Of a stretch of 64,000 nt of DNA, positions 5,617 to 47,150 are shown piece after piece. A program made the translations under genes and the position numbers. The DNA is taken from positions 62,001 through 126,000 of the forward strand of contig CALVEC010000001.1 in the NCBI GenBank assembly GCA_944326475.1. The letters are read 5' to 3'. The notes under the pieces were generated by a model, which made no database searches, had not been told where the DNA came from, and worked only from the letters and a program-made list of their open reading frames with translations. Positions within the stretch are counted from its first letter, which is position 1; every line of letters begins with the position of its first letter. The DNA comes from Candidatus Gastranaerophilales bacterium (GTDB lineage: Bacteria > Cyanobacteriota > Vampirovibrionia > Gastranaerophilales > Gastranaerophilaceae).

Positions 5617-6174
5617 TTAACTTCTGTACTTTCTGTAAATCGAACTTATGTCGTTTAAATTTTTGTCAAGGTCTTCAAAATCAATTTTACCCGACAAATC
5701 ATTGTCTTTTTTAGCTACAGTGCTTTTTGTCTGTTTTGGCTCTGTTATTGCCTCTTTAATCTCTGTTTCAATACCCTTATCAAATTCCTTTAACAGAGTT
5801 ATATTTTGCTGTGTTGCACCTATAACCAGAATTTTTCCGTTTATTTCAACGGAATAGAGGTTTTTATTTTGTCCGAGCGGCAAAGAAGACAGAATGGTAA
5901 ATCTGCTTTTTGCATAATCTTCATTTGATTTAAGCCCGAGCTTGAATTTATCCGAACGACTCATTCTTGAATATACTATACCCGTTATATAAATCAGAGC
6001 CACAACGATAACCAGCGACACCACCAAATTCAATAAACTCGGCATGCCTGAATACTCGGTTTGCATAGCCTGCTTCATAGAATCCGGTATAACGGCGGCA
6101 TATGCAGGCATATATACAGCGTAACAGAAGCTTGCTGCAGTCATTATGGAAAATAGGAATTTTATGTTTTTCAT
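5617..6174 (-). CDS. FliO-like membrane protein (flagellar export assembly factor)
   Basis: A 185-residue protein with an N-terminal signal-like hydrophobic segment (about 5-25), a second transmembrane helix (about 45-67, VVSLVIVVALIYITGIVY) and a small cytosolic domain. That domain has the FliO pattern SSLPLGQNKNLYSVEINGKILVIGAT. FliO assists assembly of the FliPQR export gate. The C-terminus is charged and linker-like. I chose the ATG at 6174 over a TTG three bases upstream because AGGAGGGG lies seven bases away. No fliP, fliQ or fliR is adjacent; instead it heads the operon with NeuB-like, HAD, TPR and lysC. Fold assignment rests on pattern only. Confidence 0.65.
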   Translation of the reverse strand: MKNIKFLFSIMTAASFCYAVYMPAYAAVIPDSMKQAMQTEYSGMPSLLNLVVSLVIVVALIYITGIVYSRMSRSDKFKLGLKSNEDYAKSRFTILSSLPLGQNKNLYSVEINGKILVIGATQQNITLLKEFDKGIETEIKEAITEPKQTKSTVAKKDNDLSGKIDFEDLDKNLNDISSIYRKYRS

Positions 6175-6343
6175 CAATACCCCTCCTGTTTTATAAATTT
6201 TACCATAATAAAATCAGAAGCAATAGGATAATTAACTAATATTAAATTTTTATTCACATTTTTTATCAGAAAAATTTATGCGGAATTGAGACATAAAACA
6301 GCCTGCAAGCACATTTATAAGATATAAGAATTGCACAAAAAAG

Positions 6344-6378
6344 TTGTAATATTTATTTTTGAATATTAATATTATTAT
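6344..6378 (+). promoter_or_regulatory. Predicted leaderless promoter of rarA
   Basis: TTGTAA (6344-6349), 17-base spacer, TAATAT (6367-6372), then six bases to the ATG at 6379. No Shine-Dalgarno sequence is present. Transcription would start at or next to the start codon. Confidence 0.5.
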
Positions 6379-7608
6379 ATGGATTTATTTCAAGCAATGG
6401 AAAATGCAAACAAGCAAGTGCCTCTCGCCGAACTTCTCCGCCCGAAAACTCTTGAAGAATACCTGGGGCAGACACAGGTTGTCGGCGAAAATTCCGCATT
6501 CTTAAACCTGTTAAAATCAGGGCGTCTTTTTTCTTGTATATTCTGGGGACCTCCGGGTTGCGGAAAAACCACCCTTGCACGGCTTATTGCAACAAAAACC
6601 GACTCGGATTTTATAGAACTCAGTGCGGTTTCATCAGGTGTAAAAGACATAAAAGACTGTGTTGAGCGCGCAAAAGAGAACCTCCGCTATCAAAAAAAGA
6701 CAATTCTTTTTATTGATGAAATCCACAGATACAGCAAAACACAACAGGACGCGCTGCTTCCTTACCTTGAAAACGGCACCTTCTTTTTAATCGGCTCGAC
6801 CACGGAAAATCCGTCATTTCAGGTTGTGCCTGCGCTGCTTTCAAGAGTGCAGGTTGTAATGCTGAGTCCGATTGATGATGAAAGCATTAAAAACATTGTC
6901 ACAAAAGGATTTACATTTCTCTCCGGAAAGTACGGCGCGATTGATATGAAACAGGAAATCCTTGATTTTATTATTAAATACGCAAACGGAGATGCGAGAC
7001 TGTGTCTTAACCTTGTCGAAAACGCATTTTTTGCCGCGGATTTTGACGGGAAAAAACGTATACTTACAATGGATATTCTTGAAAACCTCACTCAGGAAAA
7101 GAGTATCGGATACGCAAGACAGGAGCATTATGACTGCGCCTCTGCATTTCAAAAAAGTCTCAGAGGCAGTGACAAAAATGCGGCAATCTACTGGCTTGCA
7201 AAAATGATAGCCGGCGGTGAAGACCCGCGATTTATTGCAAGAAGACTCATAGTTTGTGCAGCGGAGGATGTCGGCAACGCCGACCCGATGGCGCTTGTAG
7301 TCGCAATGAATGCTTATCGTGCTGTAGAACTTATTGGAATGCCCGAGGGGCGTATTCCTCTGGCGCAGGCTGTAGAATACGTTGCGGACGCAAAAAAATC
7401 AAACAGAGCAATAATGGCAATAGACTCTGCACTTTCCGACATTACAAGCGGACTAAATTTTGCTCCGCCAATGCACCTTAGAGATGCACACTACAAAGAT
7501 GCAAAAAAATACGGATTCGGGAAAGGCTATATTTACACGCATTCTAATCCTGAGGAAAAACAACAGTTCATGCCTGACGAACTGCGCGACAAAAAATATT
7601 TTCCCTGA
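6379..7608 (+). CDS. rarA: Replication-associated recombination protein A (AAA+ ATPase)
   Basis: RarA/MgsA (409 residues) is a clamp-loader-like AAA+ ATPase acting at stalled replication forks. The N-terminus carries the family motif PLAELLRPKTLEEYLGQ, Walker A is GPPGCGKTT (57-65), Walker B is ILFIDEIHR (~107-115), sensor I is IGSTTENPSF, and the C-terminal tetramerisation domain includes MIAGGEDPRFIARRLI and AAEDVGNADP. The length is normal. The gene is transcribed divergently from the FliO-like gene. There is no ribosome-binding site; a promoter sits immediately before the ATG. Confidence 0.97.
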   Translation: MDLFQAMENANKQVPLAELLRPKTLEEYLGQTQVVGENSAFLNLLKSGRLFSCIFWGPPGCGKTTLARLIATKTDSDFIELSAVSSGVKDIKDCVERAKENLRYQKKTILFIDEIHRYSKTQQDALLPYLENGTFFLIGSTTENPSFQVVPALLSRVQVVMLSPIDDESIKNIVTKGFTFLSGKYGAIDMKQEILDFIIKYANGDARLCLNLVENAFFAADFDGKKRILTMDILENLTQEKSIGYARQEHYDCASAFQKSLRGSDKNAAIYWLAKMIAGGEDPRFIARRLIVCAAEDVGNADPMALVVAMNAYRAVELIGMPEGRIPLAQAVEYVADAKKSNRAIMAIDSALSDITSGLNFAPPMHLRDAHYKDAKKYGFGKGYIYTHSNPEEKQQFMPDELRDKKYFP

Positions 7609-43436: not shown

Positions 43437-44357
43437 ATGTTTAAATATGCAGTTAATTTGATAAAAAACTCCTTTCATCCGCTGGATGTCCGCAGCGATG
43501 TCGAACTTCAATGCGGACAATACGTGCTTATTCGCACGGATAAAGGTGAAGAAGCAGCTAAGGTTACTGTTGTAAATCACAAACTGGCAAAAATCTGGGA
43601 GAAGAAAAAGCCGCAGCCCATACCATTTATCAGAGTAATGAACAATCAGGATTTAGAAAAGCTGAAAGAGTTGTCAATAGAAGAAGACGAAGCTTTTAAA
43701 ATATGCAAAGAACTTGTTGCGCAGCACAATCTCAACATGAACCTCACACAGGCAAAATATACTTTTGACAAAAAAAAGATTACATTTTACTACACAGCTC
43801 CTGAAAGAGTCGATTTCAGAGGACTATTAAAGGATTTAACACAAACTTTTAAACGTGTCAGAATTGACTTAAGGCATATCGGAGTAAGAGATGAGACCTC
43901 TCTTATGCAAGGCAACGGACTTTGCGGCAGACCGTTTTGCTGCTGCACATTTTTGAGAAATTTTGATTCCATAAATATAAAACTTGCAAAAGACCAGGGA
44001 ATGCCTATTACCCCCGGAAAAATTTCCGGTACCTGCGGACGTCTTTTATGCTGCCTGAACTATGAATATCCCAATTATCTTGAAGCGGCAAAAGGCATGC
44101 CGCCAATCGGCTCGGCGGTAATGACTCCGGACGGACTCGGACGCGTATGTTCATTACATTTTCTGAGTTCAACAATCGCAGTAAAACTTGAAGACGGAAA
44201 AGTCAAAGATTTTACAAAACAAGAGATTGAAATGGTTGACGAAGATGTAAATATTGACATAGACATTCAAGCGAACTCTTATCAGGAAATTTCCGATTAC
44301 AATGTCGACATAAAACAACTGGAAGACGACAAAAACAGCTCAACCGGAAACTTGTAA
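43437..44357 (+). CDS. PSP1-domain protein, RicT/YaaT-like
   Basis: A 306-residue cytosolic protein with the PSP1 C-terminal domain. The centre holds the cysteine-rich signature LCGRPFCCCTFLR (about 161-173) and TCGRLLCCLNYE (about 199-210). In Bacillus RicT these cysteines help bind 4Fe-4S clusters, and RicT promotes RNA processing with RicA and RicF, and with RNase Y. The role outside Firmicutes is not well defined. RBS AGAGG precedes the ATG. The next gene, a FlhA-C-domain protein, follows after 34 bases and is probably co-transcribed. Confidence 0.92.
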   Translation: MFKYAVNLIKNSFHPLDVRSDVELQCGQYVLIRTDKGEEAAKVTVVNHKLAKIWEKKKPQPIPFIRVMNNQDLEKLKELSIEEDEAFKICKELVAQHNLNMNLTQAKYTFDKKKITFYYTAPERVDFRGLLKDLTQTFKRVRIDLRHIGVRDETSLMQGNGLCGRPFCCCTFLRNFDSINIKLAKDQGMPITPGKISGTCGRLLCCLNYEYPNYLEAAKGMPPIGSAVMTPDGLGRVCSLHFLSSTIAVKLEDGKVKDFTKQEIEMVDEDVNIDIDIQANSYQEISDYNVDIKQLEDDKNSSTGNL

Positions 44358-44391
44358 ACCCGCTTACGGTTAAACATAACGAGGTATGAAA

Positions 44392-45858
44392 ATGGCAAAA
44401 CAAAAAACACAATACTGCATAAAATCCTGCCCGACAGACAGCACGGAACAGCTTGAAAACCTGCTTAACTCAATGACAGAGGAAGGATGGGATTTGTACA
44501 CAATGCACGAAGCTGAAAGCGACGACGGTTTCTGTTTTAACTGCATTTTCATACGCGATGCCGAAGATATACCCATTGACAGCGATGATGATTTTGATGA
44601 AACTTTCGGCTACAAAACAACCATGCAAAGAATAATCGCCTCAGAAAACGACCCCTTTGAGTCTTGCATAGAAATTCAAAGAAAAATAAAAGACAAAAGA
44701 AATAAAATCCAAAAGATAAAATCATTAATTGACGAAACCTCAGAAGACCAGCGTTTTGGGCTGAATGAGGAGATGTACAATAACATAGAAGAACTTAAAA
44801 GACTCAGAAAACAGCTCAAAGACGTCACCTCGCCCGGGATTATGAAAAATAAAATAGGGCAGAAAATATTAACAATACGGCTTAGCGAAGAAATAATGGA
44901 GCTTGTAAATCCTGATACAGAAGACGTTAATCTGGTAGCTTTGACCGTAAAACTCCGCCAGCAGCTTGCTGATGAACTCGGGTATATTATTCCGAGAATT
45001 GAGTTTGAAAACTCGGATACCCTGCTTGCAAACGAATTTTCAATAGATGTCAGGGGGGTAAGCGCAGTAAGGGGGAGAGTTTATCCGGAATACCTTATGT
45101 ATTTCAAAGAAGAACTCAATCTCGAAAAACGTACAAAAGACATAATAAAAGACACCGATGTAATATCAAAACACGAAGTAATGTGGATTCCGGCCGAAAC
45201 AACCAAAAGTTTCTGGGCGGAAGGAATGGACGCAAAAAGTGTCATCATTCGCGCTCTTGAATACGTTTGTATAAAATATGCGGATTTTATTTTTGATTAT
45301 GCAAGCTTAAATGATTATATCGACATTGCCGGTAATGAAAATTTATACCTTGTTGAAAATCTTATACCGGAACGATTAACGGTTTCAGAGCTGAAAACGG
45401 TTCTCACAAGCCTTATAAAAGAACGCGTCTCGATAAAAGATATAATATTTATTTTTGAAAAATTAAATGACATAATGGAAGAAAATCCGGCGGAAAATCC
45501 GCTGGCAAGACTCAGACTGGCGCTTTCAAGAAACATATCCCAGAGTCTTGCAAACGAAAACAATCAAATATTTGCAATCGGTTTTTCACCTGAGACCTGC
45601 AAATATTTTCAGGAAAAAATTGCCTCTGTCGCGGATGTTGTACATTTTGAGAGCACAAAAATACGTTCAATAGCCTCAAAAATTGAAAAAGCCGCCGTAC
45701 AGCACGGTATTGCCACACCTGAAATACTGCTGGCAGTCCCCATGAACATTAGATATTTAACCTACATTTTAATGTCAAAACTTATATACAATATTAGAGT
45801 AATAGCTTGTGAAGAAGCGGCACCCGAGTTTGTGCTGGAAACACTGGAGAAAGTATAA
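44392..45858 (+). CDS. Soluble FlhA/FHIPEP cytoplasmic-domain protein with DUF4177-like N-terminus
   Basis: A 488-residue protein without any transmembrane helix. Residues ~5-60 resemble the small DUF4177 fold (LLNSMTEEGWDLYTMH). Residues ~75-145 are an acidic linker and coiled coil. Residues ~155-488 match the cytoplasmic C-domain of type III export gate protein FlhA: RQQLADELGYIIPRIEF (~187), FSIDVRGVSAVRGRVYPE, WIPAETTKSFWAEGMD, LVENLIPERLTVSELKTVL (~325) and KERVSIKDIIFIFEKLND, then ARLRLALSRNISQSL. Full FlhA has eight N-terminal membrane helices; here they are replaced. The ATG at 44392 is seven bases from GAGG. Flanked by ricT-like and a PLP enzyme. The function is unknown; FlhA-C normally forms a nonameric docking ring. 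Confidence 0.8.
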   Translation: MAKQKTQYCIKSCPTDSTEQLENLLNSMTEEGWDLYTMHEAESDDGFCFNCIFIRDAEDIPIDSDDDFDETFGYKTTMQRIIASENDPFESCIEIQRKIKDKRNKIQKIKSLIDETSEDQRFGLNEEMYNNIEELKRLRKQLKDVTSPGIMKNKIGQKILTIRLSEEIMELVNPDTEDVNLVALTVKLRQQLADELGYIIPRIEFENSDTLLANEFSIDVRGVSAVRGRVYPEYLMYFKEELNLEKRTKDIIKDTDVISKHEVMWIPAETTKSFWAEGMDAKSVIIRALEYVCIKYADFIFDYASLNDYIDIAGNENLYLVENLIPERLTVSELKTVLTSLIKERVSIKDIIFIFEKLNDIMEENPAENPLARLRLALSRNISQSLANENNQIFAIGFSPETCKYFQEKIASVADVVHFESTKIRSIASKIEKAAVQHGIATPEILLAVPMNIRYLTYILMSKLIYNIRVIACEEAAPEFVLETLEKV

Positions 45859-45860
45859 AA

Positions 45861-47150
45861 ATGAAAATAGACAAAAAAAAACTGCAAGAAATCATTAATG
45901 AAGCAGAAGCAAAAGTTCTGGACAAATTTAAACAAGTAGACAAAATTAAAGAACACAATCAGGAAAAGGTTCTCAATGCATTTCAAACATACAAAATAGG
46001 TCTGGACAACTTTTCCTCGGTCAGCGGGTACGGTCACGACGATATGGGCAGAGTCGCTCTCGATAACGTTTTTAAAGGCGTCTTTAAAACGCAGGCTGCC
46101 ATAGCAAGACCCCATTTTGTCTCGGGCACACACGCAATAGCTTGTGCTCTTTTCGGAAACTTAAGATACGGAGAAACACTCGTATCAGTCGTCGGAAAGC
46201 CTTACGATACAATGGATGAAGTTATCGGCACCCGTGGAAATCAAAGAGCGTCACTGATGGGGCACGGAGTTTACTACAAAGAAGTCCCGTTGACAACAAA
46301 CAGCGATGGTGAAGAAGTCGTAAACCTTGATGCAATTGCAAAAACCGTAACAAAATCTGTAAATATGGTCTTAATCCAGCGTTCCAGAGGGTATTCACTG
46401 CGAAAATCAGTGGATATTGATACTACACGAAAGATTATAGAAATTGTTAAATCAAAAAATCCAAAATGTATCTGCTTTGTTGACAATTGCTACTGCGAAT
46501 TTGTCGAAGAAAAAGAGCCGACCGAAGTCGGGGCAGATTTAATTGCAGGTTCCCTTATAAAAAATCCCGGAGGGGGAATTGTTGAAGCCGGAGGCTATAT
46601 TGCTGGCAAAGAGGAATATGTTGAGCAGGCGGCAATGAGACTCACGGCACCCGGAATAGGCAGAGAAGGCGGCGCAATGTTTAATCAGCACAGATTAATG
46701 TTTCAGGGGCTTTTTATGGCGCCGTCAATAGTTGCGGAAGCCGTAAAGGGTGCAATCCTTGCTGCACAAGTCTTTGAAGATATCGGCTTTGAAACAACAC
46801 CAAAACCGGACGAGCACCGTACCGACCTGATTCAGGCTGTCAAATTTGGGGAAGCGAATCCTTTGATAGCGTTTTGCAAGGCACTGCAGCAAAATTCACC
46901 GATTGAGTCATATCTTACTCCGGTACCTGACGAAGTACCCGGATATGATGACGAGTTGATTATGGCAGGCGGAACCTTTATAGAAGGTTCAACAATCGAG
47001 CTGTCCGCCGACGGACCTATGCGTCCGCCTTACGCTGCTTACATGCAGGGCGGTTTAAATTATTCTCATGTAAAAATTGCACTTGCAGGCGTGCTCTATG
47101 AACTTGAAAAACTGAAAATATACCACTTTGTATCGGATTTAAATTTTTAG
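45861..47150 (+). CDS. Methionine gamma-lyase-family PLP enzyme (aluminium-resistance family)
   Basis: A 429-residue PLP-dependent enzyme of the family annotated as methionine gamma-lyase or aluminium resistance protein. Signatures: SGYGHDDMGR (~55), ARPHFVSGTHAIACALFG (~80-97), CFVDNCYCEFVE (~207) and AGSLIKNPGGGI (~230), whose Lys is the likely PLP Schiff-base residue. It probably cleaves or eliminates sulfur amino acids; the real substrate is not established for most members. It starts two bases after the FlhA-C-domain gene, so the two are translationally linked. Confidence 0.92.
   Translation: MKIDKKKLQEIINEAEAKVLDKFKQVDKIKEHNQEKVLNAFQTYKIGLDNFSSVSGYGHDDMGRVALDNVFKGVFKTQAAIARPHFVSGTHAIACALFGNLRYGETLVSVVGKPYDTMDEVIGTRGNQRASLMGHGVYYKEVPLTTNSDGEEVVNLDAIAKTVTKSVNMVLIQRSRGYSLRKSVDIDTTRKIIEIVKSKNPKCICFVDNCYCEFVEEKEPTEVGADLIAGSLIKNPGGGIVEAGGYIAGKEEYVEQAAMRLTAPGIGREGGAMFNQHRLMFQGLFMAPSIVAEAVKGAILAAQVFEDIGFETTPKPDEHRTDLIQAVKFGEANPLIAFCKALQQNSPIESYLTPVPDEVPGYDDELIMAGGTFIEGSTIELSADGPMRPPYAAYMQGGLNYSHVKIALAGVLYELEKLKIYHFVSDLNF

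Follow-up and report, generated by a model that had tools for sequence, protein, structure and literature searches.

The gene and its product

A 64,000-nucleotide stretch of a Candidatus Gastranaerophilales genome (assembly GCA_944326475.1, contig CALVEC010000001.1), hereafter the window, contains an intact open reading frame of 490 codons, or 488 if counted from the second ATG at position 44392, that lies between a RicT-like gene and a gene for a pyridoxal phosphate (PLP) enzyme. Gastranaerophilales is an order of non-photosynthetic, mostly gut-dwelling cyanobacteria. The encoded protein, labelled SOL here, is a soluble paralogue of the cytoplasmic domain of FlhA (FlhA-C). The Pfam family FHIPEP matches residues 143-478 with profile positions 316-654 of 657 (E=6.2e-42), which is the cytoplasmic part alone; profile positions 1-315, the eight-helix membrane half with the FHIPEP loop, have no match in the window protein, and no 19-residue segment of it reaches the hydropathy of a transmembrane helix (maximum 1.22). 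A phmmer search of the PDB retrieved Bacillus subtilis FlhA-C (3mix, 7e-13), and the PDB relatives of SOL by sequence are FlhA cytoplasmic domains. The AlphaFold model, built with 51 homologues, has a mean predicted local distance difference test score (pLDDT) of 84.7 and the FlhA-C fold, and in Foldseek the FlhA-C structures rank first (6ch1, E=2.1e-22, TM-score 0.83 to the target).

The equivalog model for FlhA (TIGR01398) covers residues 143-485 at 121 bits, below its cut-off of 772, and the model for SctV (TIGR01399) scores 72.7 bits, below its cut-off of 692, so that SOL belongs to neither FlhA nor SctV by those families' own definitions. Chance cannot account for the match: 144 of the 146 genomes sampled from the order encode the whole architecture, and the predicted structure is an FlhA-C fold. 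A preliminary description, made from the letters of the window, had recognized an FlhA-C without its membrane domain in an intact gene rather than a broken flhA; the FHIPEP match, the D1-D4 fold, the lack of transmembrane-level hydropathy and the same-length orthologues bear this out. SOL is thereby confirmed as a real, intact FlhA-C (D1-D4) paralogue that lacks the membrane domain.

The N-terminal unit has a conserved core, LLNEMSxxGWELYSM, in the family alignment. When the homologous N-termini were compared with the Pfam model for DUF4177 (PF13783), 26 of 35 matched at E<1 (best 1.6e-4); the window SOL itself had no match to that model. Across 244 genomes of the phylum the model gave seven matches at E<=1e-3, three of them SOL genes, under the curated score. 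A fold search with the N-terminal half of SOL gave no PDB match under E=1e-3, its weak top matches being the coiled parts of PadR and TrmK, followed by NikR/ACT/dodecin-like folds. Judged from the profile matches, the "DUF4177-like" label of the preliminary description appears to hold at the family level, below the curated score. The same description placed an acidic coiled coil behind this domain: residues 57-76 are acidic and predicted to be disordered, and a two-helix hairpin is predicted at residues 88-146, the second helix of which is FlhA pre-linker and not foreign. This helix and the SPxxM motif that follows align with the pre-linker and linker (NPNKMYERL) of T, as we call the FlhA of a second export system encoded in the same genomes, and T-type FlhA is matched by the A1 profile from its position 126 onward. 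The junction between the added part and FlhA can for this reason be placed upstream of the linker.

Distribution and descent

The full architecture was found in 144 of 146 sampled Gastranaerophilales genomes, which represent 40 genera and seven families, in open frames of 473-531 amino acids. A search of 292 genomes of the phylum yielded no protein of this architecture outside the order, other matches being full-length FlhA or unrelated architectures, and the relatives of SOL that carry a name are from Candidatus Gastranaerophilales. In a set of 318 genomes at least 90% complete, FHIPEP is present in every one, with two or three genes in nearly all, while a flagellar-type full-length match occurs in only 137. 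Almost every genome has full-length flhA together with fliPQR, as a check proposed in the preliminary description had asked. SOL is kept in at least 89 sampled genomes without flagellin. Three of the 318 genomes (G122, G372 and G456) have SOL and no full-length FlhA match, and G122 retains FliP and rod genes; no clear case of a genome with SOL and without a type III secretion system was found in this set, in which G372 and G456 were not looked at further. SOL is best classed as a new family of soluble FlhA-C paralogues that is universal in Gastranaerophilales.

In the FlhA tree SOL is monophyletic (support 100/100). A fully supported branch separates SOL, T and the f8 FlhA (from a family of the same class but outside the order) from flagellar FlhA. 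On this sequence evidence, SOL is shown to derive from the lineage of the second-system FlhA and not from flagellar FlhA. Which of SOL, T and f8 branched first is equivocal (SOL+F8, approximately unbiased test p-AU 0.50; T+F8, p-AU 0.56), which is why a duplication of T later than the separation of the order can be called likely and no more. SOL evolves faster, with branch lengths of 0.15-0.8 compared to 0-0.17 for T.

A second, rod-type export system

FliP is encoded in 145 of the 146 genomes, flagellin in only 55. There are two types of FliP, about 40% identical (about 60% of residues differ): one of 213 amino acids that is universal and also present without flagellin, and a flagellar one of 256-266. 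The genome that contains the window (G000) has two full-length FlhA genes. The one on contig C9 has motA-motB-type genes nearby and scores above the FlhA cut-off (857.6 bits against 772); the other, the T gene on contig C20, is part of a locus fliF-orf326-fliH-flhA-fliI and encodes a membrane-bound protein of 705 amino acids that falls under both cut-offs (699.7 of 772 bits for FlhA, 600.7 of 692 for SctV). The second set as a whole consists of fliE, fliF, fliH, flhA, fliI, a gene for a SpoA protein, fliO, fliP, fliQ, fliR and four rod genes; it is near universal in the order, whether or not a genome also has flagellin and the P-ring. In G001, a genome without flagellin, it comprises FliE, FliF, FliH, FlhA, a 400-residue SpoA-domain protein, FliO, FliP, FliQ and FliR, along with a small periplasmic pil_N-like protein, FlgB- and FlgC-type proteins and two FlgF/G-like rod proteins; FliI was seen in the C20 operon of the window's own genome. 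Of 20 genomes tested, all have the rod genes and 14 lack the P-ring gene flgI. In family f8, none of five genomes has flagellin, and each has one FlhA of the second-system lineage.

Some further features of these loci may be recorded. Where fliG would usually stand, flanked by fliF and fliH, the second set has a gene (L055:12078-13058, 326 amino acids; L216:6232-7248) with sub-threshold similarity alone to FliG_M and MgtE_N, and between fliQ and fliR is a gene for a small periplasmic protein (L217:8491-8859, L225:10661-11002, L226:7307-7690), the L217 copy of which weakly resembles the pilus/secretin N-terminal domain PF13629. The window's own genome (2.1 Mb) contains 23 Flagellin_N matches, several of them in open frames of 600-1439 amino acids (examples of the matches are C6:103683-104078, C16:6758-7162 and C14:52124-52537).

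Earlier papers on gut Melainabacteria called the export set an incomplete flagellum (PMC4040986, PMC5877343). We read the second set as a distinct, rod-type export system and not the ruin of a flagellum, since many genomes encode it alongside a complete flagellar set and the FlhA tree keeps the two apart. A second "flhA" reported by Di Rienzi et al. 2013 (ACD20_26563.5896.13G0002, PMC3787301), which lies on a separate short contig, could on that ground be SOL, although this is a guess.

Conserved and altered surfaces

Residue conservation was counted over 51 SOL and 13 T sequences aligned to E. coli FlhA. Ring formation by FlhA requires Glu351, Trp354 and Asp356 of the linker, which bind the adjacent subunit (PMC8166844, PMC8213127). 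The positions of Glu351 and Trp354 are occupied in SOL by Pro148 (51/51) and Met151 (46/51), and in T by proline and methionine in 13 of 13 sequences each. A set of invariant FlhA residues is common to SOL and T, and 22 residues are invariant across the 51 SOL sequences. FlhA-C is the dock for chaperones in flagella (PMC5932034), with a cleft formed by Asp456, Phe459, Leu461 and Thr490 (PMC5932034, PMC8166844), where Asp456 hydrogen-bonds a chaperone tyrosine in the FliT and FliS complexes (PMC5932034). The equivalent of Asp456 is kept in 49 of the 51 SOL sequences, but the other three are mostly replaced, Phe459 by threonine or serine (45/51), Leu461 mostly by lysine, arginine or glutamate, and Thr490 mostly by arginine or lysine. 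The mean identity within the family is 53% in D3, 46% in D1 and 31% in D4, and that between SOL and T is 34-37% in D1 and D3 and about 20% in D2 and D4. The kept linker and changed cleft would suit a protein that packs like FlhA-C yet serves other clients.

Genomic neighbourhood

Pfam matches to PSP1 and Met_gamma_lyase (Table 1) confirm the two flanking genes named in the preliminary description. They are uninformative, however, because among 118 SOL loci ricT is adjacent in just 23 and the PLP enzyme gene in four; with neighbours so variable, the inference of an operon with the two was rejected. The neighbours in relatives are mostly housekeeping genes and include ricT, rplT, ompH and SIS-domain genes. 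In one genus (G007, G013) fliJ-fliK-flgD-flgE lie directly 3' of SOL; being limited to these two genomes, this arrangement was rejected as general evidence.

Table 1. Positions of SOL, its domains and neighbours (window coordinates) and of the second export set (locus coordinates)
Feature	Position	Strand	Basis or remark
Whole SOL gene, stop included	44386..45858	+	Open reading frame, FHIPEP match, same-length orthologues in 144/146 genomes
N-terminal DUF4177-like domain, residues 6-56, predicted strand-helix-strand-strand	44407..44559	+	AlphaFold; PF13783 family-level matches
Acidic, low-confidence, probably disordered connector, residues 57-76	44560..44619	+	pLDDT <50 over most
Helical hairpin, residues 77-147; second half homologous to T-type FlhA pre-linker	44620..44832	+	AlphaFold; profile match
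FlhA linker equivalent, residues 148-158	44833..44865	+	Pro148 and Met151 at E. coli Glu351 and Trp354 places
FlhA-C D1, first part, residues 159-232; GYXLI replaced by S-E/D-E	44866..45087	+	E. coli FlhA alignment, fold
FlhA-C D2, residues 233-280; Asp256 (=Asp456) kept, Phe459/Leu461 equivalents lost	45088..45231	+	Alignment
FlhA-C D1, second part, residues 281-300; Thr490 equivalent mostly Arg/Lys	45232..45291	+	Alignment
FlhA-C D3, residues 301-379; best conserved domain of the family	45292..45528	+	Alignment, domain identities
FlhA-C D4, residues 380-488; least conserved domain of the family	45529..45855	+	Alignment, domain identities
RicT/PSP1-domain protein, upstream neighbour	43437..44357	+	Pfam PSP1 3.6e-29; 28 bp before the open reading frame; not conserved across the order
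Methionine gamma-lyase-type PLP enzyme, downstream neighbour	45861..47150	+	Pfam Met_gamma_lyase 2e-181; 2 bp after the stop
Second export set, own genome (G000)	contig C20 L055:8953-14705; C3 L225:7852-11794
Second export set, G001	L216:4080-10066, L217:7708-11680, L236:7997-10377

FlhA-C domains in related bacteria

Further FlhA-C proteins without the full-length FlhA architecture are encoded by other non-photosynthetic Cyanobacteriota, one to several per genome. Two are fusions with an HTH_17 DNA-binding domain (L199:5015-6256, minus strand, in G148; L198:4765-6018 in G157). The G148 fusion is divergent from fliP-fliQ-fliR-flhB (L199:6257-9395 region), and the 149-bp gap between them contains four ACGACAA repeats, where shuffling leads one to expect 0.4 in the whole 11-kb locus; upstream of the G157 fusion the same core (TTGTCG) occurs three times in the same orientation. 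Mini-proteins of 215-250 amino acids consist of D1 and D3 only, two of them with an N-terminal hydrophobic helix (L194:4851-5501 in G128; L196:4037-4684 and 5804-6520 and L197:3001-3750 in G097), and adjoin secDF or CheW-type genes outside type III secretion loci. Proteins of 588-622 amino acids (L201, L202 and L204; G174 and G162) and one of 896 amino acids (L211:3-2690, G156) have an unannotated front of about 200 residues and no membrane helix, and one of these frames contains two FlhA-C-like stretches. FlhA-C is reused independently in these relatives, and neither the HTH_17 fusions nor the other forms are orthologues of SOL.

Possible functions of SOL

The interpretation that we place first, and hold to have about an even chance, is that SOL is a cytosolic, ring-type accessory subunit of the second, rod-type type III secretion system. 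An ancestral duplicate of FlhA would have lost the membrane half and gained a small N-terminal domain. The kept linker positions and the relatively conserved D1 and D3 would let SOL pack into a nonamer-like ring, either one of its own below the FlhA ring or one mixed with FlhA subunits, while the changed D1/D2 cleft and variable D4 would direct it to partners or clients that are not flagellar chaperones; the DUF4177-like domain may be its handle or sensor, and its role may be to select or gate the exports of the second system. Participation in a different export machine, one of the options raised in the preliminary description, is favoured because the same genomes possess a universal second export apparatus that lacks flagellin. 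Slight support comes from seven genomes in which the second-system fliP is located 6-10.5 kb from SOL, and from the one genus in which SOL stands right before fliJ-fliK-flgD-flgE. More tentatively, and with considerable doubt on our part, the Gastranaerophilales might represent a class of type III secretion system of their own, with a rod but no hook, filament or P-ring, with an FlhA under both cut-offs and with two FlhA-C rings, of which the cytosolic one made of SOL would be a detachable sorting platform.

Several observations weigh against a role of SOL in the second system. It stands in no fixed operon with that system, its neighbours being as variable as described; the fliJ adjacency is absent in a sister genus of the same family (G017) and in the window's own genome (C16); and five of the seven fliP-linked genomes are of one genus. 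SOL accompanies the second export set in 144 of the 146 genomes and nearly universally in the 318, where four genomes (G135, G409, G428, G453) have full-length FlhA and no SOL; this is a weak test and the co-distribution weak proof, as both are near universal. The GYXLI glycine at the Gly368 position, which is needed for the domain motions of FlhA-C (PMC9431611), is serine in 49 of 51 SOL sequences. Finally, the conservation of D1 and D3 could reflect fold stability alone.

Alternatively, SOL may have been exapted outside secretion, with nothing but the FlhA-C fold kept, and might for example be a scaffold of the cytosol that serves RNA or envelope metabolism. The lack of a conserved linkage to type III secretion genes among neighbours such as ricT, rplT, ompH and SIS-domain genes, the much faster evolution of SOL than of T, and the existence in the phylum of other FlhA-C derivatives outside secretion loci, including the D1+D3 mini-proteins, would all fit; the ring-linker positions and invariant FlhA residues common to SOL and T, as well as the failure to find a clear SOL-bearing genome without a type III secretion system, speak against it, and we regard exaptation as rather unlikely. 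Also unlikely, in our view, is that SOL acts outside the gate as a cytosolic regulator or sensor that binds idle clients, chaperones or FliJ-type proteins and signals via its DUF4177-like domain. The divergent arrangement of the HTH_17 fusion, the ACGACAA repeats and fliPQR-flhB in G148 is the layout of an export-gate regulator, the Asp456 equivalent is retained, and the housekeeping context of SOL suggests constitutive expression; but SOL has no recognizable DNA-binding domain, residues at the Phe459, Leu461 and Thr490 positions are mostly polar or charged, and the HTH fusions are not its orthologues.

A dominant-negative decoy that sequesters flagellar export chaperones and damps flagellin export, a form of the decoy raised in the preliminary description, is very improbable. 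FlhA-C does dock these chaperones (PMC5932034), and the genome of the window has a flagellum as well as numerous frames with flagellin domains; against this, and despite the retained Asp456, the cleft is mostly not conserved, and SOL persists in the genomes without flagellin. The missing membrane half might bring to mind a relic of flhA in decay, or a mistake of assembly or annotation. The gene is intact in hundreds of independent assemblies with a conserved length, an extra domain and its invariant residues, and this conservation refutes the idea for all practical purposes.

To our knowledge, every known type III secretion system uses a single FlhA/SctV, in which cytoplasmic ring and membrane domain are joined. 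If SOL is indeed an accessory subunit, a universal, separately encoded ring domain would mean that gate and docking ring are separable, and SOL would point to the cytosolic part of an undescribed secretion system. On our reading, what has been taken for an incomplete flagellum in gut Melainabacteria is an export system in its own right, found beside real flagella and retained where these are missing, and, with the second set separate from flagella, Gastranaerophilales would have a secretion machine not described before. For structural studies, SOL is also a naturally soluble form of FlhA-C.

Comparison with known systems

SOL shares with flagellar FlhA-C (TIGR01398/PF00771; 3a5i, 6ch1-3, 3mix, 7amy) the domains D1-D4, the fold (TM-score up to 0.84), the linker region and Asp456, but differs in lacking the membrane half, in having the GYXLI glycine, Phe459, Leu461 and Thr490 mostly replaced and in the added DUF4177-like domain. 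With injectisome SctV-C (TIGR01399; 4a5p, 7alw, 7qij) it has in common the fold and a flagellar chaperone cleft that is not conserved (for SctV, PMC5932034); unlike SctV, it has no membrane domain, and by tree and by sequence it belongs with the T-type FlhA of Gastranaerophilales. T is of the same FlhA lineage and has the same pre-linker helix and an SPxxM/NPxxM linker, but is full length with 705 residues, slowly evolving and membrane-bound. The N-terminal 50 residues of SOL resemble DUF4177 (PF13783) in the predicted strand-helix-strand-strand order and the GWEL motif, although most members score under the curated value. The other FlhA-C derivatives, that is, the HTH_17 fusions, the forms of 590-620 amino acids and the mini-proteins, differ from SOL in that they have other N-terminal parts and belong to other lineages.
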